Assembly: GCF_013359755.1 (NCBI RefSeq)
Contig: NZ_JABMCJ010000071.1
Coordinates: 124,001 to 188,000, forward strand
Origin: Tardiphaga robiniae
GTDB taxonomy: Bacteria > Pseudomonadota > Alphaproteobacteria > Rhizobiales > Xanthobacteraceae
DNA: 64,000 nt
Reading direction: 5' to 3'
Position 1 is the first letter of the stretch. Each line of letters begins with the position of its first letter. Of this stretch, positions 27,255 to 62,762 are shown in pieces. Both the position numbers and the translations under genes were made by a program. Under the pieces are notes generated by a model. It saw nothing but the letters and a program-made list of their open reading frames with translations, had not been told where the DNA came from and made no database searches.

Positions 27255-28475
27255 TTATTTCTTCAGCAGCGCACAAGTGCTCTTCTCGATCGGTGTAAAG
27301 GCCTGATCGGCTGGCACTGTACCGGCAAGCTTGTAGAAATCCCACGGCGCCTTCGATTCCGACGGCTTCTTCACCTCGAACAGATAGCCTGGATGAATCT
27401 TGCGGCCATTGGCTTCGATCTTGCCCTGCCCGAACAGCGGATCGTCGGTCGGCAATTCCTTCATCTTGGCAACGATCTTCGCGCCATCATGCGGATTGCT
27501 GCCGAGCGCTTCCAGCGCCTTGAAGTAGTGGATCAAGCCGGCATACACACCCGCCTGCACCATCGACGGCGGAGCGCCGTTCTTCATGCGCGCTGCGAAC
27601 TTCTTGGAGAAGTCGCGGGTCTTGTCGTTCAGGTCCCAGTAGAAAGTCTCGGTGAAGCTGAGGCCCTGTGCGGTTTCAAGACCGATCGCCTTGACGTCGG
27701 TGATGAACAGCAGCAACGCCGCGAGCTTCTGACCACCCTTGGCGATGCCGAATTCAGCCGCCTGCTTGATCGAGTTGGTGGTGTCGCCGCCGGCATTGGC
27801 CAGACCGATGACCTTGGCCTTCGACGACTGCGCCTGCAGCAGGAAGGAGGAGAAGTCCGCGGTGTTGAGCGGATGCTTGACGCCGCCGACCACCTTGCCG
27901 CCCGAGGATTTGACGACTTCCGAGGTATCGCGCTCCAGTGCGGCACCGAAGGCGTAGTCGGCGGTGAGGAAGAACCAGCTGTCACCGCCGGCCTTGACCA
28001 TCGCCTGCCCGGTCGAATGGGCGAGCATGTAGGTGTCGTAGGTCCAGTGCACGGTGTTCGGCGAACACTGCGCATTGGTGAGATCCGACGTCGCGGCGCC
28101 CGAATTGATGTAGACGCCGTTCTTCTCCTTGACGATGTTGTTCACCGCCAATGCCACGCCGGAATTCGGTACGTCGACGATGGTGTCGACCTTGTCGACG
28201 TCGAACCACTGCCGCGCGATGTTGGAGCCAATATCCGGCTTGTTCTGGTGATCGCCGGAAATGATGTCGATCTTCCAGCCCTTGGCCATCAGACCGGAAT
28301 CCTCGGCGGCCATTTGGGCAGCGAGCGTCGAGCCCGGGCCGCCGAGATCGGCGTAGAGACCGGACTGATCGCTGAGTGCGCCGATCTTGACAGTCTTGTC
28401 CTGGGCCATGACGACGCCCGCCATGGCCAGCGAAAGCGCCGTGCCGAGAAGTGCGGTCGAAATCTTGTTTTTCAT
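27255..28475 (-). CDS. ABC transporter substrate-binding protein, Liv/HAAT type (tandem copy B)
   Basis: 406 residues with a signal peptide (ALLGTALSLAMAGVVMA). Type I periplasmic-binding fold of the LivK/HAAT class: KIGALSDQSGLYADLGG, then AAQMAAEDSG, GDHQNKPDIGSNIARQWFD, and VHWTYDTYMLAHSTGQAMVKAGGDSWFFLTADYAFG. It is a close paralogue of the preceding gene; long blocks are nearly identical (the C-terminus reads YKLAGTVPADQAFTPIEKSTCALLKK against YKLVATIPADQAFTPLDKSACPLLKK). The two presumably widen ligand range or tune dosage of one transporter. Confidence 0.92.
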   Translation of the reverse strand: MKNKISTALLGTALSLAMAGVVMAQDKTVKIGALSDQSGLYADLGGPGSTLAAQMAAEDSGLMAKGWKIDIISGDHQNKPDIGSNIARQWFDVDKVDTIVDVPNSGVALAVNNIVKEKNGVYINSGAATSDLTNAQCSPNTVHWTYDTYMLAHSTGQAMVKAGGDSWFFLTADYAFGAALERDTSEVVKSSGGKVVGGVKHPLNTADFSSFLLQAQSSKAKVIGLANAGGDTTNSIKQAAEFGIAKGGQKLAALLLFITDVKAIGLETAQGLSFTETFYWDLNDKTRDFSKKFAARMKNGAPPSMVQAGVYAGLIHYFKALEALGSNPHDGAKIVAKMKELPTDDPLFGQGKIEANGRKIHPGYLFEVKKPSESKAPWDFYKLAGTVPADQAFTPIEKSTCALLKK

Positions 28476-28512
28476 GACTTCCTCTCAATGATTTGGACGA
28501 CGGGCTTCTAAA

Positions 28513-29736
28513 TTAGGTCTTCTTCAAAAGCGGACAAGCACTCTTGTCGAGCGGCGTGAAGGCCTGATCGGCAGGGATCGTCGCCACCAGCTTGTAGTAA
28601 TCCCAGGGTCCCTTCGACTCCTCAGGCTTCTTGACCTCGAACAGATAGGCCGGGTGCAGCTTGCGGCCGTTCGGCTGGATCGTGCCCTTGCCGAAGATGA
28701 TGTCATCGGTCGGGGTCGCCTTCATCTTGTCGACGATCTTCAATCCGTCATGGGAGTTGCCGCCCATCGCGTCGAGGGTCTTGAAGTAGTGGATCAGCGA
28801 TGAGTAGACGCCAGCCTGCACCGTGGTCGGCATGGCCTTGTTCTTCATGCGCTCCTGGAAGCGCTTGGAGAACGACCGCGTGCCGTCATTGAGGTCCCAG
28901 TAGAAGGTCTCGGTGAAGCTCAGTCCCTGCGCAACCGGCAGACCGAGGGCATGGACGTCCGAAATGAACATCAGCAGGCCGGCGAGTTTTTGGCCCCCCT
29001 TGATGATGCCGAATTCGGAGGCCTGCTTGATCGAGTTGATTGTGTCGCCGCCGGCATTCGCCAGGCCGATCACCTTCGCCTTCGATGTCTGCGCCTGCAG
29101 CAGGAACGACGAGAAGTCGGCGGTGTTCAGCGGCGGCCGCACGCTGCCCAGCACCTTGCCGCCCATGGCGGTCACGGCGTTGGTGGTGTCGCGCTCAAGC
29201 GCCGAGCCGAAAGCATAGTCCGCGGTCAGGAAGAACCAGGTATCGCCGCCGCTCTTGACCATCGCCGAGCCGGTGCCGTTGGCAAGCTGATAGGTGTCAT
29301 AGGCCCAGTGAATGGTGTTGGGCGAGCACTGTGCATTGGAGAGATCGGATGTGCCGGAGCCGGAGTTCAGATAGACGCCGTTCTTTTCCTTGACGACGTT
29401 GTTGACGGCGAGACCGACAGAGGACGTCGGCACGTCAACGATCACGTCGACCTTGTCGCGGTCGAACCACTGGCGCACAATGTTGACGCCGATATCCGGC
29501 TTGTTCTGGTGGTCGCCGACCACGACCTCGATCTTCCACCCTTTGGCGGCAAGGCCCGAATCCTCGACGGCCATCTGCGCGGCCAGCGTCGAACCGACAC
29601 CGGTTACGTCGGCATAGAGGCCCGACTGATCGTTCAGCACGCCGATCTTAGCGGTCTTGTCCTGGGCGAACGCAAGCGAGCTTGCGCTCATCATCAGCGC
29701 AAAACCCAGCAGCGACGTCGAAACGACTTTTTTCAT
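28513..29736 (-). CDS. ABC transporter substrate-binding protein, Liv/HAAT type (tandem copy A)
   Basis: 407 residues with a signal peptide (LLGFALMMSASSLAFA). Same fold and motif order as the next gene, 37 bases downstream: KIGVLNDQSGLYADVTG, GDHQNKPDIGVNIVRQWFD, and WFFLTADYAFGSALERDT. Two adjacent near-identical binding proteins for one permease pair point to a local duplication. The aspartate/serine-type ligand contacts of LivK cannot be assigned by eye, so the ligand stays open. Confidence 0.92.
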   Translation of the reverse strand: MKKVVSTSLLGFALMMSASSLAFAQDKTAKIGVLNDQSGLYADVTGVGSTLAAQMAVEDSGLAAKGWKIEVVVGDHQNKPDIGVNIVRQWFDRDKVDVIVDVPTSSVGLAVNNVVKEKNGVYLNSGSGTSDLSNAQCSPNTIHWAYDTYQLANGTGSAMVKSGGDTWFFLTADYAFGSALERDTTNAVTAMGGKVLGSVRPPLNTADFSSFLLQAQTSKAKVIGLANAGGDTINSIKQASEFGIIKGGQKLAGLLMFISDVHALGLPVAQGLSFTETFYWDLNDGTRSFSKRFQERMKNKAMPTTVQAGVYSSLIHYFKTLDAMGGNSHDGLKIVDKMKATPTDDIIFGKGTIQPNGRKLHPAYLFEVKKPEESKGPWDYYKLVATIPADQAFTPLDKSACPLLKKT

Positions 29737-50780: not shown

Positions 50781-51024
50781 ATGAACGCGATCAATCTGGC
50801 AGATTGCAAAGACCCATTTGAGCGAACTTGTCGATCGGGTCGAGGCGGGAGATTCGATCGCATCACCCGGCGCGGAAAGCCGGTCGCGCGGCTCACGGCC
50901 GTGGCCTAGGCCGCGCAAGCCGATTGACGCGGCCCAGCTCCAGTCCCTGACAGCGAGCATGCCGTTGCAGACACAGGCCGCCGCCGATCTGGTGCGATCG
51001 ATGCGGGACAGCGACCGCTCCTGA
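50781..51024 (+). pseudogene. broken Phd/prevent-host-death-type antitoxin
   Basis: An ATG at 50781 with AGGAG 6 bases upstream starts MNAINLAD, but the frame is then disrupted three times. An extra base lies near 50805 (after it, KTHLSELVDRVEAGDSI reads in the +1 frame), a missing base near 50860 (ITRRGKPVARLTAVA reads in the original frame, then hits TAG at 50907), and an extra base near 50904 ([20 protein letters not shown] follows in the +1 frame, ending at the TGA that overlaps the toxin start). Put together, these make a normal 80-residue Phd antitoxin of a VapC-type pair. A shortened product from an internal TTG at 50818 is possible, but its middle would be out of frame. Confidence 0.8.
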
Positions 51025-51449
51025 TGCTCTATCTGGACACGTCGCTGATTGTCGCCGCGCTTTCGAACGCGGCGATGACGTCATACGTCCAGGATTGGCT
51101 TGCCGAACAGGAGCCCGCGCAGCTTCTGATCAGCGACTGGACCATCACCGAGATGTCCTCAACCTTGGCAATGAAGCTGCGAACCTTGCAGATTCATCCG
51201 GAACAGCGCGCGGCTGCGCTGGCCATGTTCAGCAGACTGGTCGTCGAGAGTTTTACGGTGTTGCCGGTGACTGGCAGACACTTCAGAACGGCCGCAAAGT
51301 TCGTCGATCAACACACACTCGGACTCCGCGCCGGCAAGGCGCTGCATCTTGCCCTCGCCGCGGAGCATGGCGCTACGGTGCAGACGCTGGATCAGCGCTT
51401 GGCCGACGCCGGGCCGGTGCTGGGCGTACCGACGAAATTGCTGGCGTGA
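51024..51449 (+). CDS. VapC-type PIN-domain toxin with a replaced catalytic acid
   Basis: 141 residues overlapping the antitoxin stop (TGATG). PIN-domain acids: Asp5 ([10 protein letters not shown]), Glu43 ([10 protein letters not shown]) and Asp123 ([10 protein letters not shown]) are present, but the acid in the usual RAxDALHLA motif is Lys105 ([12 protein letters not shown]). PIN RNases need this residue for Mg binding, so the toxin is probably inactive or weak. That fits the broken antitoxin in front: a toxin without working antitoxin must be defused. It is otherwise full length. Confidence 0.83.
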
Positions 51450-52261: not shown

Positions 52262-52325
52262 TCACTCCCACTCGATCGTCCCGGGCGGCTTGCTCGTAAT
52301 GTCATACACCACGCGATTGATGCCC
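52262..52325 (-). repeat. displaced copy of the guaA 3' end (att-like site, left island border)
   Basis: Read on the minus strand this encodes [20 protein letters not shown] followed by TGA, the C-terminus of GMP synthase, with no upstream guaA sequence. It matches 61157-61218 of the real gene at 57 of 62 positions, in the same orientation, with four differences silent and one conservative. guaA 3' ends are known integration targets. This is the expected scar of the distal border of an integrated element. Confidence 0.85.
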
Positions 52326-58007: not shown

Positions 58008-58340
58008 TCGGCGTACGGGCGCCATTCGAAGAGCGGGGAGACGCCCGACGGAGCGGGCGGATTACGCCTTGCGGCTAATCCGCCCTGCGCACTGGCCGCG
58101 ACGACCGCAGGCTTGCCCTCTACCGCCGCGTCGACAACCGGGAGAACTCGGCCTTGGCATCGCGAAATTCACTCGCGCATGGCAGTGCCTTTTGTCTGAC
58201 GTAGGAGCGAAGTCGAGTTGACTAAATATGTTCGCTGGTTGGTTGTCATTCTAAACAGCGATCGGCTCTCGTATTGAGTGCAATGTCACCGTAATGCCCG
58301 AACCTTCGTACGCCGCCATTACGCGATCGGCTCTGCGCAG
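58008..58340. other. intergenic region containing a palindrome
   Basis: 333 bases between converging genes. It contains the hairpin listed at 58055-58085. The rest becomes more AT-rich toward 58200-58260, close to the downstream foreign-looking genes. No gene seen. Confidence 0.4.
58055..58085. repeat. inverted repeat GGGCGGATTA/TAATCCGCCC
   Basis: GGGCGGATTA (58055-58064) and TAATCCGCCC (58076-58085) are exact inverted copies around 11 bases (CGCCTTGCGGC). This is a common rhizobial intergenic hairpin, often found near mobile-element remnants. Confidence 0.7.
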
Positions 58341-59081
58341 TCACAAGCCGATACGCGATACCGTGAAGATCGGATTGTTGAGATCAACCTCGATCTCCGA
58401 TGTGAACGGGTCTCTATAAACCTCGGCGTCATATCCTCTAAACGCTATACCCGCTCCCTTCATCACCTTGAAAACTCGACAGACGGCTGACGTGAAAATA
58501 GGGACAACATCCAGATAAATCTGGTCTCCAGGATAGCGCTCGCTGGCGCCCTTCTGTCTGATCACCGCAAGCCCAAGTTGCCGATCGATCAGCTTGAATC
58601 TTTGCTCCGCTTTATCGCCTCTCAAGGATGTATCGAGGTGGGGCGAAGCTAGGTTCGGATCGAAGCGGGCATAGAAGTCATCCAGCCTAAAGTAGTGGCG
58701 CATGAAAATCGGCGCGCCATGAAGCGTCGGATAAGTTGCCAGAAGAAAGGAAGCGCCCAGCCATCGCGAAGGAATTCCCTCAAGGAAGAGCCGCGAAAAG
58801 AGACTACAAAACAGCGGGTGGTCGCGATGATGGATCGCATTCCGCATAGCGATGAGAAACGTCGAATCGCCATGATCAAAAAACGGGAAAAGTCCCTTGG
58901 AAACATCGTAGAGGGTGTGGAACGCCTCCAGCTTCGCTTCGAAGGCACGGTCCAGATTGTTGATTGCCTCTTCGCGATCAATCTTGAATAGGCTCCCGAA
59001 CCGCATTTGAGCTTCGACATATAAGCGCATGGTATTTGCGAGGGTGCTGATAGCCCCCTCAATGGCGTTATTCCTAGTCAT
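58341..59081 (-). CDS. HEPN-like protein with RNAIHH motif
   Basis: 246 residues, more AT-rich than the surrounding genome. The first 120 residues are predicted helical (DREEAINNLDRAFEAKLEAFHTLYDVSKGL) and contain IAMRNAIHHRDHPLF with Arg80 and His85: an R-x4-H motif placed in a helix, as in HEPN RNases. The C-terminal half is beta-rich (AVIRQKGASERYPGDQIYLDVVPIFTSAVCRVFKVMKGAG). The start overlaps the end of the next gene by 4 bases (ATGA), so the two are translationally coupled. RNase activity is inferred from the motif only. Confidence 0.6.
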   Translation of the reverse strand: MTRNNAIEGAISTLANTMRLYVEAQMRFGSLFKIDREEAINNLDRAFEAKLEAFHTLYDVSKGLFPFFDHGDSTFLIAMRNAIHHRDHPLFCSLFSRLFLEGIPSRWLGASFLLATYPTLHGAPIFMRHYFRLDDFYARFDPNLASPHLDTSLRGDKAEQRFKLIDRQLGLAVIRQKGASERYPGDQIYLDVVPIFTSAVCRVFKVMKGAGIAFRGYDAEVYRDPFTSEIEVDLNNPIFTVSRIGL

Positions 59082-60247
59082 AGGCTCGGATTGTATCCGA
59101 GAAGAACCGTGTCACCCTGCTTTACAGCGAATGCTTGCATAGCTGGCGAAACTGGTCCCTCAACATCAAAATCACCAAAACGCTTTCTAAAATAGCCCCA
59201 GTATCTTGCGAGCACGCCGGTTCTTCGAAACATCGGACACACCCAAACCCACTGAAGTCCCCAATTCTTGCCACTGGTTTGATCGCGCAAGCGAAACGCA
59301 CAAGCACCCACTATTAAATCTCGTTCGTTGAGAAAGAGAAATCCGTGAACATTCGGATCGCTATCGCCGTCGCTGCTGTCCCATTGAACAAAATCATAGC
59401 CGAACTCACGTCGAAAGAAGCGAGCCCTTTCGTAAATTTCTCGATGCTTCCAAGCTGGAGATGTAGCTGTTACCAATTCGGGCTCTGAATCAGTCAGCCG
59501 GGCTTGAGCTAGTTGCGAAAGAGGTTCTGGATTGAGCACTCTCATTCGCAACTTATGCTCTCTTCGATGATTTGCGCTCGCATCCGGATCTCCTTTAAAC
59601 CAAGTGTATCCACATTGCGCGCAGACTGTTTCTTTCGGAGAGGCACGTCGACGAAATCTTGGAGCGTCGACCGACAACAAGAGAGGCTCACCGGCATCGC
59701 CCCACCAAAGCTCTGCTTTGTACCCGCTGGACATCCGCAGCCGCTCAATCTTCGTTGCAAACGTCGCACGCCCCTCGACCTCAAGCGCTTGGGGAGCCAT
59801 CTTATGACGGTTCTTGGCAAACCAAAGAATCGAGAGTTGGGCTTCAGTGATGCGACGGAGAGACTTGATACTCGGCATCAATGCCTCGACCAAAGGCATT
59901 GGGTCGAGTGCAAAACCGAGTCGCTCCAATTGAATCAGAAGCTCGGCGACATCTGCCGCGGCCAATGCATGGAAACCAGAAACTGAACTAGAACGTGCCT
60001 TTGGCAGGTAATAAATTCTTCGCCAGGGAAGCTCGAATACAGCGCATAGTTTCTTAATATCAACGTTTCCGTCTAGGCGGGCATCGTAGAGATAGAAAAT
60101 GTCTTCGATATCAGCCCGCATAGCCCATCCATCGCTTGCTATGCGTCGAAGAAGCTCGCTTCCACTATGTAGGCGCGCCTTTCCAAGAGGTCGGCTCAAT
60201 GCGTCCCAAATAGCCTTAATCGTCCCCACGTCAAGAATATTGGACAA
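59078..60247 (-). CDS. ESCO-like zinc-finger plus acetyltransferase-like protein
   Basis: 389 residues from TTG 60247, preceded by AGGGGAA; the frame remains open to 60367, so a longer form cannot be excluded. The N-terminal 190 residues are unrecognised. Then comes ETVCAQCGYTWFKGDPDASANHRREH with Cys209, Cys212, His227 and His231, which fits the C2H2 finger of ESCO/Eco1 cohesin acetyltransferases. It is followed by a GNAT-like domain with FLFLNERDLIVGACAFRL and WGLQWVWVCPMFRRTGVLARYW (acetyl-CoA loop RRTG). The arrangement finger-then-GNAT is that of Eco1. Target unknown. It is the middle gene of the AT-rich trio beside guaA. Confidence 0.6.
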   Translation of the reverse strand: MSNILDVGTIKAIWDALSRPLGKARLHSGSELLRRIASDGWAMRADIEDIFYLYDARLDGNVDIKKLCAVFELPWRRIYYLPKARSSSVSGFHALAAADVAELLIQLERLGFALDPMPLVEALMPSIKSLRRITEAQLSILWFAKNRHKMAPQALEVEGRATFATKIERLRMSSGYKAELWWGDAGEPLLLSVDAPRFRRRASPKETVCAQCGYTWFKGDPDASANHRREHKLRMRVLNPEPLSQLAQARLTDSEPELVTATSPAWKHREIYERARFFRREFGYDFVQWDSSDGDSDPNVHGFLFLNERDLIVGACAFRLRDQTSGKNWGLQWVWVCPMFRRTGVLARYWGYFRKRFGDFDVEGPVSPAMQAFAVKQGDTVLLGYNPSL

Positions 60248-60486
60248 TGTTATTCCCCTAGCCTGAAGGAGAGGTGAAACGAAGCAATACCGACCAAGCC
60301 TCCCGCAATACGATGGGTTTCCTCTGACCCAACTCGCGCAACCATGCCCCGACCATTCGACATACAAGCTAAAGGCTTGGATGGTTGATCACGACCAATT
60401 CTGAAGAAGTCACTCGCGGAAGATACATCTCGCCAATTGGCCAATCTAGAACCGCCAAGCCTACCCAAGTTGTCAATTCTGCATTG

Positions 60487-61098
60487 TTACCGCGGTCGAT
60501 CGAGACGGAATTCCTCTGCCGGCACTGCCACGCGCCATGCATATCTCGGGCAAACTATGAAATCTTGATCATAGTGATCGAGGCGGCAATAGATTTCAGC
60601 GATATGCACTGTCGTTACATATACTGCGAGGTTGGCAATTTCGTAAAATTCGGCATGATGAGCCGCATACCAAATCGCCTTGTCAAGCGAAGGTGTCCAC
60701 GACATTCCCATGCTATGCACCGGGCCAGCGCAACCACGGAACAAAGTGAATCGCTCGCTCGCAAATGGAGCAACTGTTAGGCCTAATGGCTTTAGCTCTA
60801 GGAGACGATTGCGGTCGCAAGCGTCGAATACGTCTTTGATGAGCGAAAATCCCCACTCGTGGAAATGAGAAGTGTGCACGTAAGCGTCAAGCCAAGGCGC
60901 CTCCAGGCAACCCAACTTTGAAAGTATTCTGTAATTGCGAATTATAAAGCTTAAGCCGTCTGCCGGGATATAACCTTGAAAATTCTGACCACGAGCAATC
61001 GCAGTCTTCACGTTGTCAGCGTCAATTTCCGTGAGGCCAGAGAAGTCCAAATCTTCGAGCCCGGGCGCGTCTCCATACGGTGAACGGCCCGATTCCAT
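60487..61098 (-). CDS. hypothetical protein, possible ADP-ribosyltransferase-like fold
   Basis: 203 residues from ATG 61098, with AAAGGA upstream. The C-terminal half shows an ART-like pattern: RFTLFRGCAG (Arg121), GMSWTPSLDKAIWYAAHH (Ser133-Trp134-Thr135) and, near the end, DHYDQDFIVCP where a catalytic Glu would usually fall but Asp residues stand instead. The N-terminal half is helical. If the fold is right, it may bind NAD without full transferase activity. It is the gene nearest to guaA and the proposed attachment site, 56 bases away, with AT-rich composition. Family not firmly recognised. Confidence 0.5.
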   Translation of the reverse strand: MESGRSPYGDAPGLEDLDFSGLTEIDADNVKTAIARGQNFQGYIPADGLSFIIRNYRILSKLGCLEAPWLDAYVHTSHFHEWGFSLIKDVFDACDRNRLLELKPLGLTVAPFASERFTLFRGCAGPVHSMGMSWTPSLDKAIWYAAHHAEFYEIANLAVYVTTVHIAEIYCRLDHYDQDFIVCPRYAWRVAVPAEEFRLDRPR

Positions 61099-61154
61099 TC
61101 AAACATTCCTTTGTTCCGCTGGACCATAGCCCCTAAGCCGATATCAGACGCCCC

Positions 61155-62762
61155 CTACTCCCACTCAATCGTCCCCGGCGGCTTGCTCGTGATGTCATAC
61201 ACCACGCGGTTGACGCCCTTCACCTCGTTGATGATGCGTGTCGCGGTCTCGCCGAGAAACTTCATATCGAACGCATAGAAGTCGGCGGTCATGCCGTCGG
61301 TCGATGTCACGGCGCGCAGGCCGACGACGTATTCGTAGGTGCGGCCGTCGCCCATCACGCCCACGGTCTTCACCGGCAATAGGACGGCGAAGGCCTGCCA
61401 GATGGTGTCGTAGAGATCGGCCTTGCGGATCTGGTCGATATAGACGGCGTCGGCCTCTCTGAGGATGTCGAGCTTTTCGCGGGTGATCTCGCCGGGGCAG
61501 CGGATCGCGAGGCCCGGTCCGGGGAACGGATGACGGCCGACAAAGATATCCGGCAGGCCGAGTTCGCGGCCGAGATCGCGGACCTCGTCCTTGAACAGTT
61601 CGCGCAGCGGCTCGACCAGCTTCATGTTCATGCGTGCCGGAAGCCCGCCGACATTGTGATGCGACTTGATGGTGACTGAAGGTCCGCCGGTGAAGGACAC
61701 GCTCTCGATTACGTCGGGATACAGCGTGCCCTGCGCGAGGAAGTCCGCGCCGCCGATCTTCTTGGCCTCAGTGTCGAACACGTCGATGAACAAGCGGCCG
61801 ATGGTCTTGCGCTTCACTTCGGGATCGGTGACGCCTTCGAGTTCGCCGAGGAACGTCTTCGATGCGTCCACATGCACCAGCGGAATGTTGTAGTGGTGCC
61901 GGAACAGATCGACGACGGTCTTGGCCTCGTCCTTGCGCAGCATGCCGTGATCGACGAATACGCAAGTGAGCTGATCGCCGATCGCCTCATGAATCAGTAC
62001 GGCAGCGACGGCAGAGTCGACACCGCCGGAGAGACCGCAGATCACCTTGCCCTTGCCGACCTGGGCGCGGATCTTCTCGATCGCTTCCTCACGGAAGGCG
62101 CGCATGGTCCAGTCGCCGGTGAAGCCGGCGATGTTGCGCACGAAGTTGTGGATCAGTTTCGCGCCATCGGGCGTATGCGCCACTTCCGGATGAAACTGCA
62201 TCGCATAGAATTTTCTGGTGTCGTCGGCGATGATCGAGATCGGCGAGCCCGGCGCCTTGGCGACGGCGCGAAAACCCTCGGGCATCTTGGTGACGCGGTC
62301 GCCATGGCTCATCCAGACGTCGTATTTGCCACCCACTTCCCACACCCCGTCGAACAGCGCGCAGGTGTCGGTGATCTCGATCGCGGCGCGGCCGAATTCG
62401 CGATGATGGCCGGCCTCGACGGTGCCGCCGAGCTGCTGCGCCATGGTCTGTTCGCCGTAGCAGATGCCCAGCACCGGCACGCCAGCGGTGAGGATCGACA
62501 GCGGCGCCGACGGCGCATTGTCGTCGAGCACCGAGGCCGGGCCACCGGACAGGATCACGGCCTTCGGCTTCATTTCGGCGAAGGCAGCCTCCGCCTTGTT
62601 GAACGGCACGATCTCGGAATAGACGCCCTCCTCGCGGACGCGCCGCGCGATCAGCTGCGTCACCTGAGAGCCGAAATCGACGATCAGAATCTTGTCATGC
62701 GCCGAAGCCACATGGGGTGACGGATCGGCGGGCGAAGATGAGGGTTTGCTGGGGGCTGTCAT
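61155..62762 (-). CDS. guaA: GMP synthase (glutamine-hydrolysing)
   Basis: 535 residues. A class I glutamine amidotransferase domain ([24 protein letters not shown], Cys in [17 protein letters not shown], His in [15 protein letters not shown]) is followed by an ATP pyrophosphatase domain with P-loop [19 protein letters not shown] and the dimerisation tail ending GTIEWE. It converts XMP to GMP. Its last 62 bases are the target copied at 52264-52325, so the gene end is probably an old integration site. The gene itself is intact. Confidence 0.97.
61157..61218 (-). repeat. att-like site at the guaA 3' end (right island border)
   Basis: The last 62 bases before the stop of guaA, matching 52264-52325 at 57 of 62 positions in direct orientation. 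The copy lies 8,893 bases away and marks the proposed island. Confidence 0.8.

Follow-up and report, generated by a model that had tools for sequence, protein, structure and literature searches.

The 64,000-nucleotide stretch of Tardiphaga robiniae DNA analyzed here (contig NZ_JABMCJ010000071.1, positions 124,001 to 188,000; hereafter the window) carries, beside the 3' end of guaA, three genes encoding a HEPN-like protein (P0001), an ESCO-like acetyltransferase (P0002), and a protein with a doubtful resemblance to ADP-ribosyltransferases (ART; P0003). We hold with moderate confidence, somewhat above even, that this cargo is an assembly of independently mobile defense-type genes gathered at a guaA hotspot, with P0001 acting alone. 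The original prediction had placed all three in one defense or toxin module; their homologs were not found together in the genomes searched. The features concerned are as follows.

58341..59081, minus strand: P0001, HEPN-like protein of 246 residues (open reading frame, alignment, predicted structure)
58827..58844, minus strand: R80-N-A-I-H-H85, the Rx4H motif of P0001 (invariant in the 9 rows of alignment A2)
59078..59081, minus strand: ATGA stop/start overlap of P0002 and P0001 (4 bases common to both reading frames)
59078..60247, minus strand: P0002, ESCO-like C2H2-GNAT protein of 389 residues with a TTG start (reading frame open to 60367)
59093..59485, minus strand: GNAT domain of P0002, residues 255-385, with S367 at 59147-59149
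59555..59623, minus strand: C2H2 finger of P0002, C209-C212-H227-H231 (25/25 rows of alignment A4)
59636..60247, minus strand: N-terminal region of P0002, approximately residues 1-204, without an assigned fold (predicted structure)
60487..61098, minus strand: P0003, ART-like protein of 203 residues, with R121, S133-W-T, and D177-Q-D179 (phrog_4776, E 1.3e-5; two relatives compared by eye)
58057..61156, no strand: variable-cargo interval of the guaA hotspot (comparison with genus relatives)
61157..61218, no strand: guaA 3' end, the proximal attachment-type repeat (repeat comparison)
52264..52325, no strand: distal copy of the guaA 3' end, 92% (8,893 bp from the proximal copy)

The coordinates and common minus strand of the three reading frames hold as first reported, as does the ATGA overlap of the first two, and the genes are indeed AT-rich: guanine-plus-cytosine (GC) contents of 0.518, 0.509, and 0.510 for P0001, P0002, and P0003 (51–52%) compare with 0.619 (62%) for the window. 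Promoter and terminator scans of the locus gave no excess over shuffled sequence, and an Rfam search gave no match.

Joint occurrence speaks against a single unit. In two surveys, both of 297 genomes of the order and apparently from a single draw, P0001 was present in four and P0002 in two, with the T. robiniae genome alone common to both; P0003 was present in one of the 297, again T. robiniae itself. No P0001 relative was found in the 37 P0002-bearing genomes, and no P0002 relative among 13 genomes or records with P0001, a set that includes seven virus contigs, possibly fragments; the models used in both searches recover the window's own P0001 and P0002 in the genome draws. The co-occurrence of effector and modifier expected of a HEPN toxin–antitoxin-like two-gene system is absent from both sets, their plasmid genera do not overlap, and no trio turned up beyond T. 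robiniae in the sets searched. By the refuting condition attached to the original prediction, homologs that never co-occur, the three-gene module fails in these sets. A three-gene module of HEPN effector, acetyltransferase modifier, and ART draws on the adjacency, shared strand, and similar GC content of the genes. It is unsupported because no other genome in the sets searched contained members of both the P0001 and P0002 families, and with 239 nucleotides (nt) between the end of the P0003 gene and the P0002 start, and with DQD in place of ExE in P0003, we reject it as extremely improbable.

Relatives of P0001 occur as AT-rich single genes in prophages, or as plasmid and genome genes without P0002, and P0002 adjoined the relative in none of the loci examined. 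In all six of the viral contigs L053–L058, and so in six of eight viral contigs, the relative follows the same 209-residue tail-region gene (81–89% identical to the L053 copy; the L057 copy is split into two frames), and the same 139-residue gene comes after the relative in L053, L054, and L056. It stands after P2-like tail genes in L061 and between HNH-like and lysis-like genes in L065 (names by eye). Its GC content is 0.50 against 0.67–0.69 for the flanks in L053, L054, and L056, 0.36 against 0.52 in L061, 0.27 against 0.39 in L065, and 0.49 against 0.57 on two plasmids; judged by sequence composition, low GC relative to the prophage flanks marks these genes as morons. P0001 was detected in one of 385 genomes of a class-wide draw (T. 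robiniae itself) and in no phage record, and it was unmatched by any model of the defense library PADLOC-DB 2.0.0. Because relatives occur in prophages, plasmids, and genomes without P0002, P0001 probably acts alone, and a P0002-type silencer appears not to be needed in prophages, where P0001 relatives exist without one. In Mesorhizobium (L010:3622-5816), a distant P0001 relative lies after a helix-turn-helix gene and an ImmA/IrrE gene, possibly forming a regulated three-gene unit.

The site itself is variable. A guaA match was present in 18/18 genus genomes searched, and the interval from an F420-type reductase gene to guaA, measurable on a single contig in six relatives, showed six different contents. 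This interval spans 3.1 kb in the window versus ~0.26 kb without any cargo gene in G008; G002 has a hypothetical gene plus one for a methyltransferase there, whereas G001, G005, and G011 have other enzyme or regulator genes (names by eye for these three). In the remaining relatives the genes adjoining guaA are of other kinds, with antitoxin/PIN-type genes recurring in G010 and G015 (by eye) and a RelA/SpoT-domain gene near guaA in G003. The proposal of island-type acquired cargo is supported, since the hotspot contents vary and defense-type genes occupy the site in some relatives. The link to an attachment-type repeat stands in part: the position beside guaA and the repeat (92%) are confirmed, whereas the distal copy probably predates the genes. 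The reason is that second, distant copies of the guaA end lie on the same contig in G005, G008, G011, and G016 (75–94% identity), four relatives with other cargo. The pair was rejected as the boundary of the three-gene cargo on the same ground. Four further genes lie between the repeats, with the Pfam names aconitase B, LysR regulator, SDR, and F420 oxidoreductase, and no integrase gene was seen among the open reading frames (ORFs) there.

At the same site in G016, a lone AAA_21/SMC-type ATPase gene (L111:534-2150) fills the hotspot as defense-like cargo. Just beyond the distal repeat, a PIN-like gene (window 51024-51449) resembles the guaA-near gene of G010 (L122) and may show an older gene order. 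Elsewhere in the window, two direct-repeat blocks at 27259-29239, separated by 1,261 bp and 74–79% identical, suggest that a gene was duplicated in tandem.

The HEPN-like character of P0001 is supported by its conserved motif and predicted topology. The HEPN superfamily is marked by Rx4-6H with a polar residue, mostly N, D, or H, after the arginine, and many of its families conserve a further acidic residue, usually within Ex3[KR] (PMC3710099). The RNAIHH motif on which the original prediction relied is present (R80-N81 to H85) and invariant in 9/9 rows of alignment A2, down to 24% identity; E23 and E38 are likewise found in 9/9 rows, and E23x3R27 in seven of the nine. Alignment A2 omits the truncated L055 and L057, L058, the 50-residue match L014, and the later-found L061 and L065, of which the last two both read RNAIHH. 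By itself the motif proves little, because the pattern R[NDH]x3-5H arises in 1,208 of 5,000 shuffles of P0001, and the weight rests on its invariance among relatives. The predicted topology is HEPN-like, with helices around an insert at 86-192. Searches of NCBIfam, PADLOC, PHROGs, and PDB sequences returned nothing useful on HEPN identity, and a BFVD fold search gave no match at E ≤ 0.001.

For P0002, the proposed C2H2 finger followed by a GNAT-like domain in the Eco1/ESCO order is borne out by the finger, the domain order, and the predicted fold. The ligands C209-C212-H227-H231 are conserved in 25/25 rows of alignment A4, which comprises the window and 24 of 37 loci as chosen rows (omitting L026, L034, L036, L039, L040, L041, L043, and L046-L051, the last group being short forms, five of which match the GNAT part only). 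All six members of alignment A1 match zf-C2H2_3 (best 7e-9), P0002 alone scoring below the Pfam cut-off, and the family thus carries a zf-C2H2_3-type finger directly before GNAT, as do the cohesin acetyltransferases ESCO1, ESCO2, and Eco1. The best PDB sequence matches of the finger region are ESCO1/ESCO2, and ESCO1 is the top Foldseek match of the predicted model, with an aminoglycoside acetyltransferase second. ESCO2 is in the VIA top tie, where tubulin acetyltransferases reach an equal Z (12.5) across the GNAT part, whereas ESCO2/ESCO1 align over finger and GNAT together, making ESCO the nearest solved fold to the model across both. The catalytic pair of human ESCO1 is S809-D810, the aspartate not being strictly conserved among Esco homologs (PMC7300003). 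A serine (S367) is invariant in 25/25 rows of A4 with an acidic D/E neighbor in 20/25, and would correspond to this pair by position rather than by residue alignment. Sequence and model together therefore support an ESCO/Eco1-type assignment, from which P0002 departs in being bacterial and mobile and in having its own ~204-residue N-terminal region. A finger-GNAT relative with a seemingly different N-terminal part (L047:5689-6558) hints that this unit may be shuffled among proteins.

Within 101 relatives searched, P0002 was found once, in T. robiniae itself. Its family is mobile, occurring on plasmids, in regions resembling integrative and conjugative elements (ICEs), and on islands, with changing neighbors (HEPN, TIR-nuclease, Gabija). 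Neighbor lists cover 42 of 43 P0002 loci, L026 being lost through the ORF filter; 123 of 124 neighbor ORFs were examined, with one 1,435-residue L023 ORF omitted, one L030 start shortened, and L006 and L026 absent. A home-made gene caller missed many P0002 relatives, and its lists served for single start positions only (L030). The 126 of 137 P0002-bearing plasmid records that come from Pseudomonas, and the ICE helicase/methylase-like gene of ~1,450 residues that comes after the P0002 relative in L023, L024, L029, and L043 (name by eye), are what might be expected of a plasmid or ICE maintenance or counter-defense enzyme that acetylates a host protein. The defense neighbors would then merely share accessory regions with it, a reading that we judge quite improbable. 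In the Pseudomonas aeruginosa plasmid pBT2436, a 357-residue protein without a Pfam match is encoded 30 nt after P0002 (L007:6120-7193), and the same arrangement occurs in P. defluvii (L042).

Several observations weigh against independent genes with P0001 acting alone, or against the identities on which that reading builds. The ATGA overlap suggests that P0002 and P0001 are expressed together, and the P0002 relative in L015, the nearest found (47% identity), is ATGA-coupled to a DUF4145-like gene with RNDAAH. One P0001 relative, in L012, has a GC content of 0.504 against 0.497 for its flanks, i.e. no difference. P0001 itself has no Pfam match and no Foldseek match in the PDB at E ≤ 0.001; its matches to solved HEPN folds are weak, with scores under the level convincing for helical bundles, and two of its five structure models are poor (predicted local distance difference test scores of 52.7 and 46.0). 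P0002 of T. robiniae has proline after S367 where the family mostly has an acidic residue. Finally, the PADLOC control was a core region, not a matched accessory region.

The first two of these points bear on a two-gene system in which P0002, as a family-wide control subunit with a swapped effector, detects or determines the state of a HEPN protein translated together with it, either silencing that protein by acetylation or activating it. The coupling in L015 is the chief reason for keeping this pair, or a wider principle of an acetyltransferase with a variable effector, in consideration. Four-base overlaps of P0002 relatives with the next gene recur in 5/42 loci (L005, L015, L016, L031, and L040, with four different genes), HEPN-type genes lie directly downstream in three places (the window, L015, and L006, where the gene is annotated HEPN and reads RSQLLH), and TIR-Mrr (L033, at +87) and GajA (L002, at +99) are also found downstream. 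A precedent for silencing is MntA, which AMPylates HepT (PMC7641770). Against the pair stand the P0001 relatives in prophages, plasmids, and genomes without P0002, the many P0002 relatives that precede an ICE-type gene, an integrase-like gene, or nothing close on that strand, and the lack of P0001 in the 37 P0002 genomes; we consider it somewhat unlikely. A bolder reading, which we regard as unlikely, would make the mobile bacterial ESCO/Eco1 branch a pluggable control subunit of conflict systems, in which an N-terminal sensor, zinc finger, and GNAT domain acetylate and switch a co-translated, exchangeable effector (HEPN, TIR-nuclease, or others). The target could instead be an ATPase of the SMC/ABC type, in the way that Eco1 acts on Smc3. 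Were this reading true, the acetylation of cohesin in eukaryotes may go back to a bacterial conflict enzyme.

On the favored reading of separately mobile genes, P0001 would be a dimeric, metal-independent HEPN RNase with R80 and H85 at its active site. It would stay inactive in the absence of phage and, once it senses an invader, cleave RNA to bring about abortive infection. The putative model is Tha, a HEPN RNase of a Staphylococcus aureus prophage that is triggered by tail proteins (PMC11087260). Like the P0001 relatives, Tha is prophage-borne and has an RNxxxH motif (R265NSIMH270, compared with R80NAIHH85), a likeness at the level of the motif; its HEPN domain is at the C-terminus, in contrast to the P0001 helices arranged around an insert. 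HepT, of the HEPN/MNT toxin–antitoxin system, differs in that P0001 is without a nucleotidyltransferase partner and has a ~105-residue insert, and its score is unconvincing for a helical bundle. P0002 would bind acetyl-CoA and one zinc ion and acetylate lysines on a protein target, traveling via plasmids, ICE-like regions, and islands, while P0003 would be a divergent, probably impaired ART-like passenger.

ADP-ribosyltransferases of the R-S-E class have the signature R, S-x-T/S, and E. The ART-like RG...SWT pattern claimed for the third gene is present (R121 and S133WT), but the third signature position reads DQD rather than ExE, and ART identity is accordingly weak. The sole match of P0003 is the phage family phrog_4776, a profile present in 4/297 order genomes; the two relatives compared by eye, L133 and L135 (L134 lying outside the comparison), keep RG/SWT and read ERE and ETE at the third position. 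P0003 had no match among viral contigs, in phage records, or among PDB sequences. Its sequence makes P0003 no more than ART-like, and possibly inactive. A 76-residue ORF of Rhizobium indicum (L131:2974-3204) is related to the P0003 N-terminus (60% over 50 residues) and runs into the end of a UvrD helicase gene, which itself lies behind a gene for an OLD-type TOPRIM ATPase. This arrangement is Gabija-like and hints that the P0003 family may supplement systems of that kind.

With P0001 comes a family of prophage morons that has a HEPN motif and lies outside the PADLOC-DB 2.0.0 models. The new part is the mobile bacterial ESCO branch, which would surprise a specialist. If P0002 is an active acetyltransferase, then enzymes of the ESCO type exist in bacteria and on their plasmids, which would make it possible to test where cohesin acetylation came from and would open a tractable hunt for the bacterial substrate.
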